Part shown: positions 4,233 through 38,774 of the stretch, one piece after another | Numbering within the stretch: the stretch's first letter is position 1 | Layout: every line of letters begins with the position of its first letter | Assembly: GCA_015296075.1 (NCBI GenBank) | Contig: DVDV01000113.1 | Location: forward strand, 1-56,716 | Reading direction: 5' to 3' | DNA: 56,716 nucleotides | DNA from: Leptolyngbyaceae cyanobacterium M33_DOE_097 | Lineage (GTDB): Bacteria > Cyanobacteriota > Cyanobacteriia > Leptolyngbyales > Leptolyngbyaceae | Program-made: the position numbers and the translations under genes | The notes under the pieces: generated by a model | Database searches by the model: none | The model's input: the letters and a program-made list of their open reading frames with translations, nothing else | Told to the model about the DNA's origin: nothing

Positions 4233-5963
4233 ATGACAAAAATTCTCATAATTGAGGATGACCTGACAACCCAAAAGTTGTTACTCAAGATTTTGCAAGA
4301 AGAAGGCTTTGAGGCGATCGCCGCTAGCAAAGGTCAAACTGGCATTCAACTTGCCCGCGCGCATGAGCCAGATATCATCATCTGCGATGTAATGATGCCG
4401 GAAGTCAACGGCTACGACGTGCTGAATGAAATTCGCAGCGACACCTCAACAGCTGACATTCCCTTCATTTTTCTGACAGCCCTTTCTGACCATCAGGATC
4501 GACGACACGGCATGGAAATGGGAGCCGACGATTACCTGACCAAGCCCATTAAGCGAACAGAACTGCTCAACGCCATCTCTGTCCGCTTAGCCAAGCGCAG
4601 TGCCATGACCCAGCCCTACATTGATGAAATGCGACGAGCCGCGCAAAATCTGGCGACGATGGCCTATTACGATCCCTTAACCCATCTCCCCAATCGCATC
4701 ACCTTTCATCATCGGCTGCAGGCGTGTCTAGAACGACAGCCTGATTCGGTTGTGGTGCTCTATCTAGGATTTGATGAGTTAGTCCCAATTCCCAATTTTT
4801 CTGACCCCACCCTGATTCATCAGGTGATTCAGGCAATGGCGCAACAACTGGCACGGCTGTTTGGTCAAGACGGTTGCATCGCTAGAGTTGGTGAGCGCGA
4901 ACTTTGTCTGTTTGTACAAGATGTGTCGGGACGCTCTGCGATCGCTGAAATGACACACCAAGTTTTAGCAGTCATGCAAGAACCCTGCAGCATCGATGGT
5001 CACTGTCTTCAGGTGCAGACCAACATTGGTCTTGTCGTCTTTCCAGAGCACGGCAACACGGCCAGCGAGCTACTCGAAAAGGCAACGATCGCCATGCAGT
5101 ACTCAAAAACGCAGGCACCTAACCAGTTTCAGTTTTACTCTGACAAAGCCGAGCAACTGTTGGCTGAGCAGCAACTCATCTACAACACCTTGAACTACGC
5201 GTTGGAGCGGCAACAGCTTTGTCTCTACTTCCAACCACAGGTACACCTGATCACAGGTCGCATTATTGGCGCTGAAGCATTTTTGCGCTGGCAACATCCT
5301 GAACTGGGCTTACTCAACCCGCAACGTTTTTTAGACGCCGCAGAGTCAACAGGCATGATTGTGCCCATTGGCGACTGGGTGATACAAACAGCATGTCAGC
5401 AGGCTGCCCTCTGGCGATCGCTCTATCAACTCCCGATCCGGGTGGCAGTTAACCTCTCAATGCGCCAGTTTATGCAGCCAAACCTGGCTCACAAAATCGT
5501 TGAGATCGCTGAGCGAGCCGGATTGCCACCAGAGTTTCTCATGCTTGAGCTAAAGGAAAATACCCTCACATCCAATGTGGAGTTTGCCACGATCAACCTG
5601 CGTCAACTTGAGGCAGCGGGGGTCAGAGTTGCCGTCGATAACTTTGGCACCGGCTTTTCGAGCTTACGACAATTGCGACGATTGCGCGTTAACCTGCTTA
5701 AAATCGATCGCTCGTTTGTGCATCAGGTCATGATTAACGAAGATGATGCGGCGATCGCCAAGGCGATTGTGGCGATGGCTCATGCCCTCCAAATCAAGGT
5801 TGTTGCAGAAGGCGTTGAGACTGAGGAACAAGCTCAATTTTTGCGTCAATGTGGGTGTTACGCGATGCAGGGTTATCTCTACAGTGAGCCAATGCCACAG
5901 GCAAACTTTCAAGAGTTGCTGACTTCTGATCGACGTTTGCTCACTTTGTCTAGCAAAACCTGA
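4233..5963 (+). CDS. Receiver-GGDEF-EAL response regulator with degenerate catalytic motifs
   Basis: The 576-residue protein starts at the ATG that opens the receiver fold (MTKILIIEDD); the frame stays open upstream but that part has no domain. Receiver: acidic pocket D9/D10, phospho-acceptor D52, K104, so phosphorylation looks intact. GGDEF-like region (about 150-300): the signature is RVGERE instead of RxGGDEF, so it is not a cyclase. EAL region (about 315-565): EAL reads EAF, and the metal-binding DDFGTG reads DNFGTG, while the KIDRSFV and AEGVET segments are kept. It is therefore probably a weak or inactive phosphodiesterase, or a c-di-GMP binder controlled by a partner kinase. No kinase is adjacent. 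Confidence 0.88.
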   Translation: MTKILIIEDDLTTQKLLLKILQEEGFEAIAASKGQTGIQLARAHEPDIIICDVMMPEVNGYDVLNEIRSDTSTADIPFIFLTALSDHQDRRHGMEMGADDYLTKPIKRTELLNAISVRLAKRSAMTQPYIDEMRRAAQNLATMAYYDPLTHLPNRITFHHRLQACLERQPDSVVVLYLGFDELVPIPNFSDPTLIHQVIQAMAQQLARLFGQDGCIARVGERELCLFVQDVSGRSAIAEMTHQVLAVMQEPCSIDGHCLQVQTNIGLVVFPEHGNTASELLEKATIAMQYSKTQAPNQFQFYSDKAEQLLAEQQLIYNTLNYALERQQLCLYFQPQVHLITGRIIGAEAFLRWQHPELGLLNPQRFLDAAESTGMIVPIGDWVIQTACQQAALWRSLYQLPIRVAVNLSMRQFMQPNLAHKIVEIAERAGLPPEFLMLELKENTLTSNVEFATINLRQLEAAGVRVAVDNFGTGFSSLRQLRRLRVNLLKIDRSFVHQVMINEDDAAIAKAIVAMAHALQIKVVAEGVETEEQAQFLRQCGCYAMQGYLYSEPMPQANFQELLTSDRRLLTLSSKT

Positions 5964-6028
5964 TTGTCTTGCAAAGCCTGAGCTAAACAACGACAACTTG
6001 ATTGAATCACTCAATCCTAGAACTTAGA

Positions 6029-6101
<73 letters not shown>

Positions 6102-6611
6102 TGGTTGGGACATTGCCTTAATACTTTACGGCGAACTCCTACCGCATTTTAGCAATGTTTCTAATTGTTATTAGAAGTTGTGCCGATCAGTTTTGTCAGA
6201 CTGGCTTTATGGGTGCTGAGCCAACACGAATAAATTTGTGAACCGAACGTTTGAGAGTATGTTAAATTACACCTCTCTAGGCTTGTGTTCGGACAGGGAA
6301 AAGGCCGGGTATTTCAGGTTTTTCTGAATTTGCACCAACCTGTCATAGCTGGTCAGGAGCAACAAAACCAAAACATTTTGTTGAGAACAATTGCACTCAA
6401 AAGTGAGTGACGCAAAATCTTCACACCTTTTGGGGCACATTTATAAAACGACAACAAACCAAAAACACTAAGGAGTTGTACACTGGCAGTCAACTAGATG
6501 AAGTTGAATAAGATAAGGTTTTATCATCTGCGATCGCACCGACTCACCAGCGGCTCTTCGCTAAGTTAGGTGTTTATCAGTTATTCGCCCTAGCTATTTC
6601 GTGGCAGTCTC
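6102..6611. other. Intergenic region between tRNA-Arg and the next gene
   Basis: About 510 bases with many stops in all frames. It should hold the tRNA promoter (minus) and the promoter of the gene at 6612 (plus). I find no RNA gene signature that I can support. Confidence 0.5.
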
Positions 6612-7280
6612 ATGTTTATTTTGAAACGGCAGGATGTTGAAATATCGAGCGTTCAGCACCCTAAACGAGATCAGCAAATCCCGATCCTGACGTATCAGGG
6701 GCAGACATTTCGCTTGATTAGTGTGTTTAACGCCAGCCAAGAGGAGGAAGCAAAATCCTTTTGGCGTGACCTGACTGACAATCAGGGCAAAGCCTGCGTT
6801 TTATTAGAAGAGCCTGAACGGTTTAGTGTCTGGGGAAAGATTCGGCTTGACCAGCTTGAGCATGATGCGGATGCGGCGGCGGGGAACGCTCTGCCACCCG
6901 CTTACCTGCGAGCGAGCCTATTGATGTTACAGGGTGTCTACATCGATATTGAAGACTTGCTGGGAGGGCGACAAGCCAGCCTATTTCAAAAAGATATTGC
7001 TGAGGTATTTAAGCAGTGGCGTTTTCCTCAAGCAGAAACACCCGACGCAGTTAAAAATTTGCTGGCGATCGATCCCTTAAATGCGGCTCAGCTCCCCCCC
7101 TGGCAGGAGCATCACCTCAACACCCTCTTGCAGGAGTTGCATCGCCTGGGTAAAGCCTATTTTGGCAACACGTCGTTTGTTGAGCGTGCAAACGATATTT
7201 TGCATGACTTATCTGATAATGACCATGCTCAGTTTCAAACCTGGCTAAATCGCTCACCTTTAGGGAAACTTTGGCGTTAG
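6612..7280 (+). CDS. Conserved cyanobacterial protein (Npun_F0813-like)
   Basis: A 222-residue soluble protein that I associate, from memory and with moderate confidence, with the cyanobacterial Npun_F0813 family of unknown function. No enzyme motif, signal peptide or membrane helix is visible. The N-terminal 60 residues look like a small beta domain (KRQDVEISSVQHPKRDQQIP, then LTYQGQTFRLISVF); the rest is helical and acidic, with a conserved-looking LPPAYLRASLLMLQGVYIDI segment. It is monocistronic, 165 bases before a membrane-protein gene. The function is unknown. Confidence 0.7.
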   Translation: MFILKRQDVEISSVQHPKRDQQIPILTYQGQTFRLISVFNASQEEEAKSFWRDLTDNQGKACVLLEEPERFSVWGKIRLDQLEHDADAAAGNALPPAYLRASLLMLQGVYIDIEDLLGGRQASLFQKDIAEVFKQWRFPQAETPDAVKNLLAIDPLNAAQLPPWQEHHLNTLLQELHRLGKAYFGNTSFVERANDILHDLSDNDHAQFQTWLNRSPLGKLWR

Positions 7281-31799: not shown

Positions 31800-32041
31800 A
31801 CATTCACCCGCAAAATTTGGTTTTTGAAGTGCCGAACACGTAATAGCCGACTGTAATCGATTATTCTTAGCGCTGAACGCAGCCAACAACGAGCCGATAC
31901 AATAACCTTTAACTAACACCCAAAAAATTGTTGATCACAAAAAATTTAAATTGCGATCATTGTTTCTTAATGTTTACAAAAGTTTGTAAACTTAAGGAAA
32001 GATTCAGTCTTATGCCAGTTTGCCTTCTGTAAGGAGTGTCT

Positions 32042-32971
32042 ATGAAGCCCCTAGTGACGATTGAGCGCTTCAGTTTATTTGGTCATGTAATGGCATTGTT
32101 TTTTGGGTTAGCAGGCTTGCTGCTAGTGCTACCTAATCCCGCGCTGATTGCGACGCTGCCGCCTTTTGGGCAAAGTTTGTTTGGTTGGAGTATGGCAGGC
32201 GGAGGGGTTGCATACATCCTGCTAGGGGCGATCGCGGTCGCACTTTATGCCCGTCGTGTTTTAGGAACTCAGTTGTGGCTCGGCTTTATGCTGCCTGCAA
32301 TCGGGTTGTCACTTTCAAGTGAGCTATTGGGCACCAGCACAGGTTTTCCCTTTGGGCATTACGGCTATCTCAATGGTCTCGGTTATAAGATTGCGGGCTT
32401 GGTGCCTTTCACCATTCCCTTATCGTGGTTTTATGTTGGCTTATCAACCTATGTCTTGGCCCGAGCCGGTCTAGAAAATCGGGGTGTTAAGGGTGTTGTT
32501 CGCGAGATTGGTGCGATCGCTCTGGGTGCTTTGCTGCTGACCGCGTGGGATTTTGTGCTTGACCCTGCAATGAGTCAAACCCCTTACCCCTTCTGGGAGT
32601 TTCAAGATCCGGGTGAGTTTTTTGGCATGCCCTATCGCAACTTGACCGGCTGGCTCGGCACCGGAGCGTTGTTTATGACTGTTGCATCGTTCTTCTGGCG
32701 TGGTAAAGATCTCAAGCTGACGCGATCGCAATTGACGCTGCCTCTGGTTGTCTACCTTGTGAATTTTGGCTTTGGTGCGGCAATTACTATCGCTCAGTTA
32801 GATGTACGCTACTGGATTCCGACGGCAATTAGCGTGGCGTTGGGCGTTGTACCCGCGATCGCCTTCTGGCTTTCGGCGAAGCCTGCCCTGCCTCCTGTAG
32901 TTGAAACCGCAAGTGCTTCACCAACCCTGAGTCCTCCAGAGGTGGCGACCGTTGCCGCTGCCACCAAGTAA
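32042..32971 (+). CDS. cruF: Carotenoid 1',2'-hydratase CruF
   Basis: A 309-residue membrane protein with about eight hydrophobic helices; it matches the bacterioruberin/CruF hydratase family. In cyanobacteria CruF adds water across the psi end of gamma-carotene on the way to myxol glycosides (myxoxanthophyll). Family-type segments are GTSTGFPFGHYGYLNGLGYK, PFTIPLSWFYVGLSTYVLAR, and AWDFVLDPAMS with FGMPYRNLTGWLGTGALF. The start is the ATG at 32042 with AAGGAG 5 bases upstream. cruG, which acts next in the pathway, lies 251 bases downstream on the same strand, and this pairing supports both calls. Lys, Thr and Ala fill the short soluble tail. Confidence 0.9.
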   Translation: MKPLVTIERFSLFGHVMALFFGLAGLLLVLPNPALIATLPPFGQSLFGWSMAGGGVAYILLGAIAVALYARRVLGTQLWLGFMLPAIGLSLSSELLGTSTGFPFGHYGYLNGLGYKIAGLVPFTIPLSWFYVGLSTYVLARAGLENRGVKGVVREIGAIALGALLLTAWDFVLDPAMSQTPYPFWEFQDPGEFFGMPYRNLTGWLGTGALFMTVASFFWRGKDLKLTRSQLTLPLVVYLVNFGFGAAITIAQLDVRYWIPTAISVALGVVPAIAFWLSAKPALPPVVETASASPTLSPPEVATVAAATK

Positions 32972-33108
32972 ATCAATTTAAAGAGTCTGCATTCGTTATC
33001 TGGCACTTTGCTCTGCTTCCTTCTCCCTAGGAGAGGGAAAATGAGGATTGGCCAGGTATCGTTTAACTGGAGTTTGGACTATTTCAGAAAATACACCACA
33101 TTTAGGAG

Positions 33109-33128
33109 GGGCGAACGGCCGTTCGCCC
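33109..33128. repeat. 20-bp perfect palindrome, family C
   Basis: GGGCGAACGGCCGTTCGCCC is its own reverse complement and is flanked by an AGGAG and a CTTACA. A partial copy, with a similar right half and a changed left half, lies at about 41511-41540. It lies between cruF and cruG. Confidence 0.85.
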
Positions 33129-33222
33129 TTACACATAGTGGGAAATGGCATTTAATCTAAAGTCCAAGTTTAAGCTTTCTAAGTTTTGTATTTGTCTATT
33201 CAGAGGGATTTGAGAGGGGACA

Positions 33223-34401
33223 TTGCTAATTTCTGCGATCGCGCTGATCTTGTTACTGGCTCAGCTTCCAGCCGTTGCGATTTTAATGTCGCGACTCATC
33301 CAGGGTCCCTTTCGTCGCCCACCACTGCAACCTCAAACGCCAACACCAGATGATTTGGGCAAAGTAAGCGTCGTTGTGCCTACCCTCAACGAAGCAGAGC
33401 GTATTGCTCCCTGTTTAGATGGGTTAAGCCATCAAAGCTACGAAGTGCGCGAAATTTTAGTTGTTGATAGCAAGTCAACGGATGGTACACCTGACTTAGT
33501 TAAGGATGCCAGCTTGGTTGACCCGCGCTTTCGACTCATGAATGATCCCCCTTTGCCCAAAGATTGGGTTGGTCGTCCCTGGGCGCTACACAATGGCTTT
33601 TTGGCTAGCGATTCAAATAGCGAATGGATACTTGGCATTGATGCCGATACTCAACCGCAACCTGGCTTAATCGCGAGTCTGCTGCAAGTGGCAAACGCAG
33701 AAGGCTATGACCTGATTACCCTTTCACCCCGCTTTATCTTGCAATACCCCGGTGAATTGTTACTGCAACCCTCCTTGCTGGTCACACTGTTGTATCGCTT
33801 TGGCGCCGCCGGAGAACGTAATAGTTCACCAGAGCGAGTGATGGCAAACGGGCAGTGCTTTTTCTGCCGCAAATCGGTACTCACCCGCGTTGATGGCTAC
33901 ACCAGTGCGCGACAATCGTTTTGTGATGATGTGACTCTGGCTCGCCACATTGCCGCTCAAGGTGCCCAGGTTGTTTTTTTAGACGGGGCAAACCTACTGA
34001 AAGTCCGGATGTACGAGGGGGCGGCTGAGACATGGAAGGAGTGGGGGCGATCGCTTGACCTCAAGGATGCGGCCAGTCGGGCTCAACTTTGGGGCGACGC
34101 GCTGTTGCTTGTAGCTGTGCAAGGCTTACCCTGCTTCATCACCCTTGCCTTACTGAATCAGGCTTTGACCCACAGCCTCTCCCTCCCCGCGACCCTCTTG
34201 TTTTGGCTCAACCTCAGTTTGGTGCTGATCCGGTTTGGGCTCAATTTTGCGATCGCCCAATCCTACGATTTAACTCAGGCCAAACTTGGTTGGCTCTTTT
34301 GGCTTTCCCCCCTGACGGATTGGCTAGCCACAATTCGCATTCTGCTCTCTTCTAGCCAAACCCCCAAACAGTGGCGCGGACGGATTTATAGCAACTCCTA
34401 G
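33223..34401 (+). CDS. cruG: CruG-type carotenoid 2'-O-glycosyltransferase
   Basis: A 392-residue membrane-associated family 2 glycosyltransferase. It has one N-terminal hydrophobic helix, the GT-A catalytic domain (VSVVVPTLNEAERIAPCLDG, then the DxD segment GIDADTQPQPG and a DDVTLARH acidic pair), and three or so C-terminal helices. Next to cruF it is best read as CruG, which puts the sugar on the 2'-hydroxyl of the myxol backbone. The TTG start at 33223 follows a GAGAGGGG ribosome-binding site. The identity of CruG rests on synteny with cruF plus the family; alone the sequence shows only GT2. Confidence 0.86.
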   Translation: MLISAIALILLLAQLPAVAILMSRLIQGPFRRPPLQPQTPTPDDLGKVSVVVPTLNEAERIAPCLDGLSHQSYEVREILVVDSKSTDGTPDLVKDASLVDPRFRLMNDPPLPKDWVGRPWALHNGFLASDSNSEWILGIDADTQPQPGLIASLLQVANAEGYDLITLSPRFILQYPGELLLQPSLLVTLLYRFGAAGERNSSPERVMANGQCFFCRKSVLTRVDGYTSARQSFCDDVTLARHIAAQGAQVVFLDGANLLKVRMYEGAAETWKEWGRSLDLKDAASRAQLWGDALLLVAVQGLPCFITLALLNQALTHSLSLPATLLFWLNLSLVLIRFGLNFAIAQSYDLTQAKLGWLFWLSPLTDWLATIRILLSSSQTPKQWRGRIYSNS

Positions 34402-34533: not shown

Positions 34534-37056
34534 ATGGAAACCACAGAGCGCGTCACCTGGCTGCAACAAAACACAATCTTAGCGTCGCTTTCAGAAGCAG
34601 CTCTAGGGGCGATCGCGGCGGCCATCCACGAAGAAACAATTCCTGAAAACCACCGCGTCAGTCTCGAAGAAACAGCGCCCGTTGCCCTCTACATTCTGGT
34701 GAGCGGCCTGTTAGAAAGCTACCGCACGAGCCAAGCCAGTCTTGCCAGCCACGTTGCAAATTTGCTCCCCGGCTCCGTCTTGCACCTGAAAGAATTGGTG
34801 CTTGACAAACCAACTGAAAATACCGTCATCACTCTGGCAGACTGCGTGTTTTGGGTCGTGCCTCAGGCAGAATTTCGAGCGATCGCCCAACAGTATCCCG
34901 AAATCGGTCAAAGCTTCTCACGCCAGCTTGCCAGCGAACTCGATCAAGTTGCCGCTACTCTCGAATATGAGCGCGAACGACAGGCGGCGTTGCGCCCCTA
35001 TTTGGTTCCTAAAGTCCGACGTGGGATTGTGGGCACCAGTCGTTATGCCAACCGTCTGCGGCAAGACATTCGCAAGGCGGCTCAAGACCGCAAACCCGTT
35101 CTGATTTTGGGCGAACCAGGGTTAGAAAAAGACAACGCAGCCGCTTTGATTCACTTTGGGTCGGCATTTCGCAAAGAACCCATGGTCAAAATCAATTGCG
35201 ATACCCTGCAAGCAAGTGGAGTGGAGTTATTTGGCCGCGAAGGTGGCAAACGCGGCTTAATTGAATGGCTCGATCAGGGAACCCTGCTACTCAACAACCT
35301 GCAAGACCTCTCCCCCAATATTCAGGAAAAGTTGGTGGAGTTGTTACGCACAGGCACCTACACTCCTGTCGGTGGCACAACGCCTCACTCGACCAATGTT
35401 CGCATCATGATGACCACTGAGAAGGTGCTACCCGCGATCGCTCGCAAAAACCTGATCGGTCATGACATCAAAATTTCTCCATTGCGGGTGCGCAAAGCCG
35501 ACATTACCGCCCAGGTCGAGTATTACCTCAGTTTGGCCTGCCGTTATAAGCGAATGACAAAGCCCAAAGTCACCCCAGAGGCGATTCGGCGGTTGCAAAG
35601 CTATGACTTTCCCGGCAATTTAACCGAGTTAGAGAGCCTGGTTGAACGTGCTGTGATTCAGTCTAATGGGGCAGAAGAACTGACCGAAGAAGTTTTCTGG
35701 TCGGCTAGCACCAAAGCCAAACGCTTTCGTTTTAACCTGTTAAATGGTTACCCCAGACTGCGCCAGTTTCTCCGGAGTCCCTGGTATCCCGATCGCATCA
35801 ACTATGGCTTTACCCTGCCTATTTTCGCGATCGTGGTTGGCATTCTCTTGTTTGGGCCGCAAAGCCGTGACCAAAACGTGATGTTGACGGTTTTCTGGGC
35901 CTGGTGGTGGCCCCTGATTCTACTCGCGTTTCCCTTTGTGGGTCGGCTCTGGTGTGCCTTTTGTCCGTTTATGATTTACGGCGAGTTGACCCAAAAACTG
36001 TCGCTCAAATTCTTTCCTCGAAAGCTTTTGCCCTGGCCACGCCAACAAGCTGAGAAAGTTGGTGGTTGGTTTTTATTTGGCCTCTTCACGTTGATTTTAC
36101 TCTGGGAAGAACTGTGGAATTTGGAAGACACCGCCTACTTATCTGGCTGTTTGTTGTTGCTCATTACGGCTGGAGCCGTTATCTTTTCGGCGTTGTTTGA
36201 GCGCCGTTTTTGGTGTCGCTACCTCTGCCCGATTGGTGGCATGAATGGACTCTTTGCCAAGCTCTCGGTGATTGAGCTACGGGCACAACAAGGCATTTGC
36301 TCTGCAACCTGTACAACCTACCAGTGCTACAAGGGTGGCCCCCAAAAAGGTGAAGGGCAAGAAACAGGCGGTTGTCCAGTCTACTCTCACCCTGCGCAAC
36401 TCGAAGACAATCGTGACTGTGTGTTGTGTATGACCTGCCTGAAAGCGTGCCCGCATCGCTCGGTGGAGTTGAACTTGCGTCCCCCTGGCATCGATTTGTG
36501 GACAACCCACAAAGCAACCGCGTATGAAGTGTGTCTACTCTTTCTGCTATTTGGAGCCGTCTTTTTGCATCGCCTGCCCGAAATTGAAGGTGAGTTCAAT
36601 TTGAATTTACACCTGAATAACTTCGTAGCTCATACGGGCGCTTCGTTGTTGGCTCTCGCTGTCCCGATCGCGATCGCGCTTCCGGCTCACCAACTGTTGC
36701 GTTGGCTGAATCCTGGTAACAAGTCCCTCACCTTCGTCAAACTGGCCTACGGCTATTTGCCCCTCGTTTTAGGAAGCAGTCTGGCCCATTACCTACGTTT
36801 AGGTCTAACCGAAGCGGGGCGAGTCTTACCCGTCTCATTTGCTACTTTTGGTCTGCCGGGTGCCTACCTACCTGTTGCGGTCGCCCATCCAGCTGTGATC
36901 GCGTTTCTGCAAGCCAGCCTACTGATTCTTAGTTTCTGGCTGAGTGTGTTTGTGCTGCAAAAGATCGCCCGTAAATCCCTGCTGCGCTTATTCCCTCAAG
37001 TTTTAGCCATGGTCGCGATCGCGACGCTGCAATGGTGGGTAATTGTTGGCTGGTAA
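34534..37056 (+). CDS. Fusion: cNMP-binding-like domain + degenerate sigma-54-activator AAA+ + membrane polyferredoxin
   Basis: This 840-residue protein joins three modules. Residues ~10-125: cyclic-nucleotide-binding-like beta roll (ALYILVSGLLESY, then LKELVLDKPTENTVI). Residues ~165-390: AAA+ resembling sigma-54 enhancer-binding proteins; it retains ELFGRE, KRGLIEW, IQEKLVELL and FPGNLTELESLVERAV. The P-loop reads GEPGLEKD (K199), Walker B is LLNNLQ with Asp/Glu lost, and the GAFTGA loop is absent, so ATP hydrolysis and sigma-54 contact are unlikely; cyanobacteria also lack rpoN. Residues ~400-840: transmembrane helices with Cys motifs C474-C477, C561-C565, C589-C593-C598, C614, and a ferredoxin motif C629-C632-C635-C639P, like NapH/NosR/CcoG polyferredoxins. 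It may be a redox- or nucleotide-responsive membrane protein. Its partner is unknown. Confidence 0.85.
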   Translation: METTERVTWLQQNTILASLSEAALGAIAAAIHEETIPENHRVSLEETAPVALYILVSGLLESYRTSQASLASHVANLLPGSVLHLKELVLDKPTENTVITLADCVFWVVPQAEFRAIAQQYPEIGQSFSRQLASELDQVAATLEYERERQAALRPYLVPKVRRGIVGTSRYANRLRQDIRKAAQDRKPVLILGEPGLEKDNAAALIHFGSAFRKEPMVKINCDTLQASGVELFGREGGKRGLIEWLDQGTLLLNNLQDLSPNIQEKLVELLRTGTYTPVGGTTPHSTNVRIMMTTEKVLPAIARKNLIGHDIKISPLRVRKADITAQVEYYLSLACRYKRMTKPKVTPEAIRRLQSYDFPGNLTELESLVERAVIQSNGAEELTEEVFWSASTKAKRFRFNLLNGYPRLRQFLRSPWYPDRINYGFTLPIFAIVVGILLFGPQSRDQNVMLTVFWAWWWPLILLAFPFVGRLWCAFCPFMIYGELTQKLSLKFFPRKLLPWPRQQAEKVGGWFLFGLFTLILLWEELWNLEDTAYLSGCLLLLITAGAVIFSALFERRFWCRYLCPIGGMNGLFAKLSVIELRAQQGICSATCTTYQCYKGGPQKGEGQETGGCPVYSHPAQLEDNRDCVLCMTCLKACPHRSVELNLRPPGIDLWTTHKATAYEVCLLFLLFGAVFLHRLPEIEGEFNLNLHLNNFVAHTGASLLALAVPIAIALPAHQLLRWLNPGNKSLTFVKLAYGYLPLVLGSSLAHYLRLGLTEAGRVLPVSFATFGLPGAYLPVAVAHPAVIAFLQASLLILSFWLSVFVLQKIARKSLLRLFPQVLAMVAIATLQWWVIVGW

Positions 37057-37421
37057 TTACCCCATACCGACGTTGGTTTTACCGATAAAAGTTGAAAATT
37101 AGCCATAGACAATCCGGGTTAAAGAAACTATCAAGGAATAAACTCTTCGTGCCACCACATTCAGTGTCCCTGTAATATGTAGGCATAAGCTTTTCTATCC
37201 GTACCCCCCGGTAAGTTTGATTTCGCTTCTCTCTATCCTGGTTTTTAAGTGCTTTCACTGAGAAATTATTAAACGTTCCTCTACGTTCCTATCATTAGGG
37301 TCATTTTGAGCATGTGGTGTATCTCCTTTTTGCAGGTATTTGCAAAGGGAATTGATTAGTATGGATAGAGAATTTATTCCCTGCGTTGCCTTCATTAAAC
37401 CAGTCCCTAGAGGCGTTTGTG
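37057..37421. other. Intergenic region before the PilB-like gene
   Basis: About 365 bases with no recognised gene or strong hairpin. An AGAGG at 37409-37413 may be the ribosome-binding site for the GTG start at 37422. Confidence 0.45.
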
Positions 37422-38774
37422 GTGGATACAGACAAAGCAACTCTTTCGTCCGATGATAAATTCGGCTTGCCGGCTTATGTCGATACTGAGACAGTTTTTC
37501 GTCTAGTTGATAGCATTTTGCCTTTTGAAGCCTGCCTTTACCATCAAGTCATCCCTTTATCTCTTGAAGGTAGTCGTCTAAAACTGGGTATCGTTAACTT
37601 AGACGACACGGCTGCACTTGATTATGTACGGCGCATCCTTGCCTACATGAATTGCTCACTCGTGCCACAAACGATCAGCCTGGATGTGCATCATGCCATT
37701 CTTTCGGCTTATTTGAGCCATTCGGGTAATAAGAAGGCAAGTCAAGCTCACAATAAGCCTCGTCACACTCCGGCAACAGATAGTTCGCCCAATTCTGCTG
37801 ACCCGCCCAAAGCAACTGGCACGCGCCCAGTATCCAGCGATCGCCACACGGCTCCAACCCTGTTGGTCGATAGCCCAGAAGAGTTATTACGCGAAGAAGA
37901 GGCAACCTCTGCGAACCGCCGTAACACCGACACCCTGGCAGATAACTTTGCTGAGGCACCGCCTGCGATTGATCAAGAAGCATCGCTGCCAGCTCCACTT
38001 GCGATCGATGTCGATGATGATACGCCGACCCAACCGCTCTCAGTCAGCGACTCCCCCCTATACTCCGCTAAAATTGGTGGTTTTAATCCAAATCTGACGG
38101 CACCTCCGCCAGTGAATCTAGCTCGCCCTAACAGTGCTTTACCCGCCTTAAAAATTCAGGCCAGCCACTTAAATGAGTCCCTGGAAACACTGACTGCGCT
38201 TCCAGCCGGGCAAATATTGCAAGAGTTACTGGGCCGCGTTTTAACAGGTGGCATTGGACGCCTGTACTTTCAACGGCTCCCCGATCGCGGGCGCATTTTG
38301 TGGAGTCAAAATGGAATTCCACAATCCATTCTGGAAAATTTGTCGCTTGAGAAATTGCAAGCCGTGATTAACGAGCTAAAAGCCCTGACTCACATGCCTC
38401 AAGTCGCCGTACAAAAGCCCAAACAGGTTGAAATTGAGCGTCAATATCAACGGCAACGATTGCTGCTACGCTTGCGCCTGATGCCGGGTAAACATGGCGA
38501 AGAAGCAACTCTCCAAGTCCTGCGAGGGGCAGCGCTTAAGTTTTATCAGCAGCAACAACTGACAAATCTCAGTCGCGACGCCTTAACAATCGCTCAAGAG
38601 CTACAAGCAAAAGTCGATGAGTTACAAGCTCGCACGCATTCTTACCCTACTTTGTCACCCGAACAACTCAAGCTTTTGCCAGCCTTAAACGAGGTGATTA
38701 AGAATGTGGAGCATCAGTTAGAGCTGCTACGGGCGATTCAAATTGATGCAAACAACAAACACAGTTCGGGTTAG
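37422..38774 (+). CDS. PilB/GspE-like protein lacking the ATPase motor domain
   Basis: About 450 residues. After a short tail, residues ~27-100 resemble the MshEN/T2SSE N-terminal domain (ILPFEACLYHQVIPLSLEGS, then RLKLGIVNLDD). A Pro/Ser/Thr-rich linker (~115-240) leads to a domain like the N2 region of PilB/GspE ATPases (HLNESLETLTALPAGQIL, RLYFQRLPDRGRIL, RLMPGKHGEEATLQVLRG). The protein then ends in a coiled coil. No Walker A, Asp-box or Walker B is present, so it cannot be a pilus motor alone. It may be an adaptor, inhibitor or c-di-GMP receptor (MshEN domains can bind it). The start is uncertain: GTG at 37419 or 37422, or TTG at 37386. Its last 4 bases overlap the convergent acetyltransferase gene. 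Confidence 0.72.
   Translation: MDTDKATLSSDDKFGLPAYVDTETVFRLVDSILPFEACLYHQVIPLSLEGSRLKLGIVNLDDTAALDYVRRILAYMNCSLVPQTISLDVHHAILSAYLSHSGNKKASQAHNKPRHTPATDSSPNSADPPKATGTRPVSSDRHTAPTLLVDSPEELLREEEATSANRRNTDTLADNFAEAPPAIDQEASLPAPLAIDVDDDTPTQPLSVSDSPLYSAKIGGFNPNLTAPPPVNLARPNSALPALKIQASHLNESLETLTALPAGQILQELLGRVLTGGIGRLYFQRLPDRGRILWSQNGIPQSILENLSLEKLQAVINELKALTHMPQVAVQKPKQVEIERQYQRQRLLLRLRLMPGKHGEEATLQVLRGAALKFYQQQQLTNLSRDALTIAQELQAKVDELQARTHSYPTLSPEQLKLLPALNEVIKNVEHQLELLRAIQIDANNKHSSG

Follow-up and report, generated by a model that had tools for sequence, protein, structure and literature searches.

A cyanobacterial protein family in which a sigma-54-activator-type AAA+ domain lacking the Walker B acid pair is fused to a membrane module with twelve invariant cysteines

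The window considered here is a stretch of 56,716 nucleotides from the Leptolyngbyaceae cyanobacterium M33_DOE_097 (assembly GCA_015296075.1, contig DVDV01000113.1, positions 1 to 56,716), and its subject is a single gene whose 840-residue product, referred to below as the window protein, joins a beta roll of the cyclic-nucleotide-binding (cNMP_binding) type, an AAA+ domain of the sigma-54-activator type and a membrane part with cysteine motifs of the iron-sulfur (Fe-S) type. By an open reading frame (ORF) check the frame at 34534-37056 is uninterrupted, and together with the Pfam domains this bears out the coordinates and the three-domain fusion given in a preliminary description of the stretch. 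The family to which the protein belongs includes a type I, of which it is a member, a separate type II and a picocyanobacterial type. The features of the gene are as follows, with residues numbered as in the window protein.

34534-37056, + strand: whole gene, ATG start, 840 residues, type I member
34648-34896, + strand: beta roll of the cNMP_binding type, residues 39-121 (Pfam and predicted fold), with the phosphate-cassette Arg unconserved
34900-35025, + strand: long linker helix joining the beta roll to the AAA+ domain, residues 123-164 (predicted model, predicted local distance difference test (pLDDT) about 59-81)
35026-35460, + strand: AAA+ core of the sigma-54-activator type, residues 165-309 (Pfam, NifA alignment, fold Z about 19)
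35110-35133, + strand: P-loop GEPGLEKD, residues 193-200 (conservation among 84 type I proteins)
35233-35256, + strand: residues 234-241, where the L1 loop with its GAFTGA has been lost (alignment)
35293-35298, + strand: N254 and N255 in place of the Walker B acids (alignment)
35485-35688, + strand: AAA+ lid, residues 318-385 (Pfam AAA_lid_14), with no helix-turn-helix domain detected downstream
35782-36195, + strand: predicted transmembrane helices 1-4, residues 417-554 (hydropathy, model)
35953-35964, + strand: membrane-side Cys motif 1, C474-x2-C477-P (alignment)
36214-36228, + strand: membrane-side Cys motif 2, C561-x3-C565-P (alignment)
36298-36450, + strand: ferredoxin-like part with C589, C593, C598 and C614, then C629, C632, C635 and C639-P (Fer4-type matches below cut-off; alignment)
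36514-37053, + strand: five predicted C-terminal transmembrane helices, residues 661-840, carrying H679 and, in most type I proteins, H700 and H752

In Pfam the window protein matches cNMP_binding (E 3.7e-10; 40.1 bits against a cut-off of 27.5), Sigma54_activat (E 2.2e-23; 83.2 bits against 20.2), AAA_lid_14 (E 7e-12) and, in two stretches, Fer4_5 (E 2.9e-9). All 38 orthologues scanned carry these four families as well as Sigma54_activ_2. The top NCBIfam match of the protein is PspF (E 1.6e-34), at 120 bits where the cut-off of that family is 444. Comparisons across the family are based on an alignment of 130 sequences thinned to 96, from which fragments, duplicates and unrelated AAA+ loci were removed (the loci taken out being L001, L003-L008, L044, L059, L061-L065, L104 and L139), and on structure-based alignments that cover 37 of 80 loci and the window protein.

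The AAA+ core and lid align with a chain of NifA, a bacterial enhancer-binding protein (bEBP), with an E-value of 1.6e-26, and the predicted AAA+ fold matches DmpR, NtrC1 and NtrX at Z of about 19. Five of the six residues of GAFTGA, the loop by which bEBPs contact sigma-54, fall inside an eight-residue gap of the window protein in the NifA alignment, and a GAFTGA-like pattern occurs in none of the 96 aligned members and none of 40 type II proteins. Most of the FRxDLYYRL-type segment, which carries arginine fingers, falls inside a nine-residue gap, and the segment is short too in the 22 members displayed. At the Walker B position, where bEBPs have Asp-Glu, type I proteins carry Asn at 254 (84 of 84) and Asn at 255 (83 of 84); six picocyanobacterial-type proteins have Asp (four) or Ser (two) followed by Gln, Gly or Cys. 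The preliminary description had proposed that both GAFTGA and the Walker B acid pair were lost, and both losses hold: an intact GAFTGA was found in none of the 96 members and Asp-Glu in none of the 84 type I proteins, as would be expected of conserved features and not of a local sequence error. Its account of the P-loop as changed is right in that the motif is altered, yet seven of the eight positions (G193, E194, P195, G196, L197, K199 and D200) are each identical in 84 of 84 type I proteins, while position 198 holds Glu in 45 of them and Gly in 31. In these 84 proteins the P-loop is the sole stretch of eight residues in the AAA+ region with at least seven invariant positions, and because the P-loop is the best-conserved stretch of the domain while the Walker B acids are lost, nucleotide binding has probably been kept and hydrolysis given up. 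In a study of PspF, the E108Q variant is described as binding ATP 30-fold more tightly, as hexameric and as having less than 1% of the ATPase activity (PMC4132715), so that an ATP-bound, barely hydrolysing state can be functional. The reuse of the bEBP AAA+ fold without GAFTGA or the Walker B acids, in fusion with a membrane module of the Fe-S type, is supported as proposed and is conserved in the family.

That sigma-54 is generally absent from cyanobacteria, which the preliminary description took as known, stands as a general statement: in a 2011 survey, sigma-54 and its activators were absent from all 29 cyanobacteria sequenced by then (PMC3162934). The absence is not absolute, because a 2025 paper reports rpoN in two cyanobacteria (PMC12316311). 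The source genome itself gives no rpoN match with either domain model (PF04552 and PF04963), each of which is positive in 4 of 14 control genomes. Fragments of rpoN turned up in 4 of 291 genomes across the class, one of them barely above the cut-off (23.7 against 22.8 bits); spanning only 33-41 positions, they are read as chance helix-turn-helix matches. The best reading is that the window protein is not a sigma-54 activator. A transcription regulator that works with the sigma-70-type polymerase, through contact with DNA or with the polymerase, would have a precedent in VpsR- and FleQ-like relatives of the bEBPs, which regulate without canonical sigma-54 activity, and one type II record is annotated as a 'nitrogen assimilation regulatory protein'. 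Such a role is nevertheless very unlikely for a protein that is predicted to be membrane-bound, that has lost GAFTGA and both Walker B acids, and for which a helix-turn-helix family is detected neither in the window protein (Pfam, E<=1) nor among the families of the 38 orthologues (E<=0.001).

The model of the beta roll gives a match over residues 2-139 at Z 17.5 (to a potassium-channel chain) and one over residues 1-118 at Z 17.0. The putative phosphate-binding Arg position, placed by alignment and presumably equivalent to R82 in the phosphate-binding cassette of CRP, is Asn in the window protein; it is Arg in 16 of 84 type I proteins and in 0 of the 37 type II proteins that have a residue there. 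The roll itself is missing from 6 of 6 aligned picocyanobacterial-type proteins and from a few other type I proteins. Because this Arg is unconserved and some members have no roll, a cyclic-nucleotide signal, one form of the nucleotide or small-molecule signal of the preliminary description, appears unlikely.

Nine transmembrane helices are predicted in the membrane part. At least ten Cys, with a complete C629-C632-C635-C639-P motif, had been counted before, and the alignment confirms the motif within a set of twelve (C474/C477, C561/C565, C589/C593/C598/C614 and C629/C632/C635/C639), each present in 96 of 96 members, type II and picocyanobacterial-type proteins included. Hydropathy and loop charge lead us to infer that all twelve lie on the cytoplasmic side of the membrane, together with the AAA+ domain, where they would hold Fe-S clusters. 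Three His are also conserved to different degrees, H679 in 94 of 96 members, H700 in 82 of 84 type I proteins (a type I feature) and H752 in 81 of 84 type I and 34 of 38 type II proteins; one may speculate that they serve as heme, metal or quinone ligands. The NapH model (TIGR02163) matches 38 of 38 membrane parts, with a best E-value of 1.2e-16, and NosR (NCBIfam) weakly matches 16 of the 38.

In Deinococcus ficus the membrane module occurs alone, as a protein of 452 residues with 12 of 12 Cys, 32.5% identity over 93%, and neither AAA+ domain nor beta roll; the membrane part can therefore exist without the AAA+ domain. In two haloarchaea examined the module likewise lacks the AAA+ domain and the beta roll, and 8 of the 12 Cys are aligned. 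The D. ficus module lies on a plasmid (locus L201, 5042-7323), where it overlaps by 4 bp an upstream His-rich protein that lacks a Pfam match. In the same genome as the window, two Fer4_5 membrane proteins with long C-terminal parts are encoded on contigs C239 and C250 (loci L194 and L195). A CcoG-like cupric or ferric reductase, in which the AAA+ domain would serve assembly or regulation, draws on a Cys layout of the same class as that of CcoG, which is reported to be a Cu(II) reductase (PMC7558416), on the overlap with the His-rich protein in Deinococcus and on an RND efflux family at 6 of 40 type II loci. This identity is doubtful, given that the Ig-like (immunoglobulin-like) C-terminal domain is not detected in the window protein by Pfam and that the surroundings of type I show no common neighbour family, although no search was aimed at copper or oxidase genes.

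The preliminary description spoke of this architecture in a cyanobacterium, which is true but understated, as a six-frame search (E<=1e-30) of 291 genomes from the class finds the family in 201. The other 90 have no match at that threshold, and 0 of 20 of these were positive when searched again at 1e-5, so the family is patchily absent from cyanobacteria. Three small genomes (1.7-1.9 Mb) of one family (f2) are without the gene, which the larger members of f2 carry. A draw of 194 genomes from the phylum gave 52 matches at 1e-40, all 52 within the same class, the number of genomes drawn from outside the class not being listed. Synechococcus elongatus probably carries a member, which from the gene order after rpoC2 and typA we take to be Synpcc7942_1527. 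A variant in genome G025 (L165, 7143-10505) has 1121 residues and two AAA+ domains in tandem, with the P-loops GEAGVGKVN and GEPGLGKDN, and frames of similar length occur in G040 and G054; the tandem variant suggests that the AAA+ domains act as pairs or rings. Single members elsewhere have an internal stop or a split gene (for example in G150, G221 and G263), and with the odd motifs these might be taken as signs of an assembly artefact or a decaying gene. The orthologues contradict such an origin, with a near-full-length match in most genome rows listed, invariant Cys and a near-fixed Asn pair, and it can be given next to no weight.

A second member of the family in the source genome lies on contig C65 at 4671-6920 (L209), encodes 749 residues and ends 88 bp before the end of the contig. 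It belongs to type II, which forms a separate clade (support 100) in a tree of 46 rows that was built quickly and leaves many forks open. Type II is present in 37 of 291 class genomes, at E<=1e-215 and with 57-100% identity to the query sequence; two copies are on annotated plasmids. The type II P-loop is classical, ending in GKT in 37 of 38 proteins. At the Walker B position, 20 of 38 have an acidic first residue (Asp or Glu); the second is Asn in 32, Gln in 5 and His in 1, never Glu.

The surroundings of type II were compared in 40 neighbourhoods (L154-L157, L206, L207, L209, L210-L214 and L217-L244). In 26 of these, cysK follows the type II gene on its own strand, no more than 1.2 kb downstream; at 22 loci the distance is at most 268 bp with no ORF between, and at four there are one or two intervening ORFs. 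Among the 14 loci outside the 26, one has cysK 6.8 kb upstream and 3 leave no room for it before the contig end. As controls, 110 type I and picocyanobacterial-type neighbourhoods were used (114 of at least 12 kb, less four of type II), where up to about 10 kb on each side was covered. Three of them hold a cysK-like gene, roughly 5.9, 5.0 and 1.2 kb away; no copy is adjacent, and the one at 1.2 kb is on the opposite strand. The linkage has a Fisher p of 4e-17 (26 of 37 against 3 of 110), which is a guide only, as related genomes are not independent. The linked cysK is cysteine synthase A (NCBIfam, over the cut-off). Docking of a CysE-like C-terminal Ile peptide on CysK was considered and rejected, an Ile end being present in 14 of 40 type II proteins and lying inside a hydrophobic stretch.

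Other families recur in the 40 type II surroundings, each named from one representative: NUDIX (11), rhodanese (10), petC (9), SQR-like (7, far under the cut-off of the SQR model), Tll0287-like (7), aldehyde oxygenase (6), RND efflux (6), psbA (5), DUF302 (5) and ArsR (5). At one locus (L211) a rhodanese stands together with several ORFs that by eye resemble CCG-type heterodisulfide-reductase proteins. Cyanobacteria that use sulfide are described as having sqr near arsR and special psbA genes (PMC5061849), and in Synechococcus PCC 7002 H2Sn raises psbA, petC and cysK2 whereas sqr falls (PMC12466478); the present family is not named in the searched passages of these two papers. A general role would fall to type I, and the handling of sulfide or reduced sulfur on its way to cysteine to type II.

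Around type I itself, a conserved operon was considered and rejected, no neighbour family being common in the 114 loci. In the 113 neighbourhoods besides that of the window, no homologue is found of its carotenoid-synthesis-type, glycosyltransferase, MshEN/T2SSE-like and GNAT genes, and its photolyase gene has a homologue in one of them. Just upstream, on the same strand (32036-34401), lie a Caroten_synth gene and a family-2 glycosyltransferase gene, a CruF/CruG-like pair. At 37386-38774 the window encodes a protein of 462 residues that carries an MshEN domain, matches T2SSE only weakly and in part, and may be a regulator derived from a pilus ATPase.

The explanation placed first, at a probability of roughly one half, is that the window protein is a membrane electron conduit of the NapH/CcoG class controlled by a nucleotide-binding pseudo-AAA+ module that has lost hydrolysis. 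The membrane part would link the quinone pool (or a metal) to a cytosolic acceptor by electron transfer; the pseudo-AAA+ domain, with nucleotide bound and probably oligomeric, would open or close the electron path or permit its assembly, and the beta roll would probably no longer bind cyclic nucleotides. The alternative that ranks close behind, and that the preliminary description favoured, is a redox sensor whose Fe-S part reads the quinone pool or sulfide and oxygen, while the pseudo-AAA+ domain and the beta roll relay the reading to a cytoplasmic partner. Soluble domains of a regulatory type, an AAA+ domain conserved though non-catalytic, the tandem variant of one clade (L165) and a paralogue tied to cysK and partly to sulfide-type genes all speak for a sensor, which is possible, although Pfam detects no output domain, be it DNA-binding, kinase, cyclase or another, in the window protein and 38 orthologues, the membrane module occurs elsewhere without the AAA+ domain or beta roll, and type I has no conserved neighbour gene. 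Which of the two sides is input and which is output cannot be told from the sequence; the gated conduit is favoured because the membrane unit occurs alone and because no output domain was detected. A fuller version of the conduit is more tentative still: a pseudo-AAA+ ring would sense ATP/ADP or another nucleotide and gate the passage of electrons through Fe-S clusters that connect the plastoquinone pool with the cytosol, and a paralogue tuned to sulfur would work next to a cysteine synthase of its own.

Several observations weigh against the gated conduit. The score of the membrane part with the NapH model is far under the curated cut-off of TIGR02163 (52 against 213 bits), and the predicted membrane model is mediocre, with a mean pLDDT of 69 and a ferredoxin part below 50. 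No solved fold matches that model (Foldseek, E<=0.001), the best VIA-align Z being 6.5; given so weak a model, a new fold cannot be concluded from the missing match. Both Walker B acids are changed here, which is more severe than the PspF E108Q substitution, and with Asn in place of the Walker B Asp, Mg-ATP should bind less well. No gene neighbour of type I is conserved, the commonest family, among those present in at least 8 loci, being found at 19 of 114, and the patchy absence of the gene shows that its function is dispensable in some cyanobacteria. The sulfur reading of type II is drawn from neighbours found in a minority of loci, and the families that recur there also include NUDIX (11 of 40) and the aldehyde oxygenase, an enzyme that uses oxygen (6 of 40).

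If the fuller version of the conduit holds, a nucleotide-gated polyferredoxin would be a new device of redox and energy coupling and a candidate reader of the quinone pool in cyanobacteria, where the family would bear on how the redox state of the electron-transport chain is read and on adaptation to sulfide. The gene is present in about two thirds of the sampled cyanobacterial genomes, its motifs pointing to an ATPase fold retained for a non-catalytic job beside twelve invariant membrane Cys. A published function for the family, which the preliminary description named as something that would count against it, was not found in open-licence literature, a coverage that leaves out most subscription journals; the window protein does not appear in the searched passages of PMC11237479, PMC1858693 and PMC8002359. 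Two type II records are labelled generically or misleadingly ('cyclic nucleotide-binding domain-containing protein' and 'nitrogen assimilation regulatory protein'). The pairing of type II with cysK offers a concrete physiological handle, and the family can be tested as a candidate for a new kind of redox control in cells that photosynthesise.

Each domain of the protein is already known from other systems. What was not found described in the open-licence literature is the fusion, in which a bEBP AAA+ domain is conserved although dead by nature, and the linkage of type II to cysK. With the two proteins of contigs C239 and C250 the window protein has Fer4_5 in common, and no AAA+ domain or beta roll was seen in them by eye. 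NosR and NirI are membrane polyferredoxins filed as regulators; unlike them, the window protein has no detected FMN (flavin mononucleotide) domain and has the AAA+ domain and beta roll instead, and the match of its family to NosR is weak and found in 16 of 38 membrane parts. CcoG, FixG and RdxA are polytopic membrane proteins as is the window protein, which differs in having no detected Ig-like tail and in its AAA+ fusion; no CcoG match is listed in the NCBIfam scans of the window protein and the 38 membrane parts. For CcoG, Cu(II) reduction and two tetranuclear Fe-S clusters are reported (PMC7558416). The resemblance to the ferredoxin subunits of the NapH/MauN quinol dehydrogenases consists in two membrane-side Cys-Pro motifs followed by a ferredoxin part, and the differences in five extra C-terminal helices, the fused AAA+ domain and beta roll and a score far below cut-off. 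The motif of NapH and MauN, Cys-x(2,3)-Cys-Pro pairs followed by ferredoxin Cys, is present in the alignment of the window protein. From the bEBPs (PspF, NifA, NtrX and NtrC1) the protein is set apart by the missing GAFTGA, the Asn pair at Walker B, the short arginine-finger segment, the undetected helix-turn-helix and the attached membrane part, whereas its AAA+ core and lid are alike in sequence and in predicted fold, and its P-loop fits the bEBP pattern GExGxxK(E/D).

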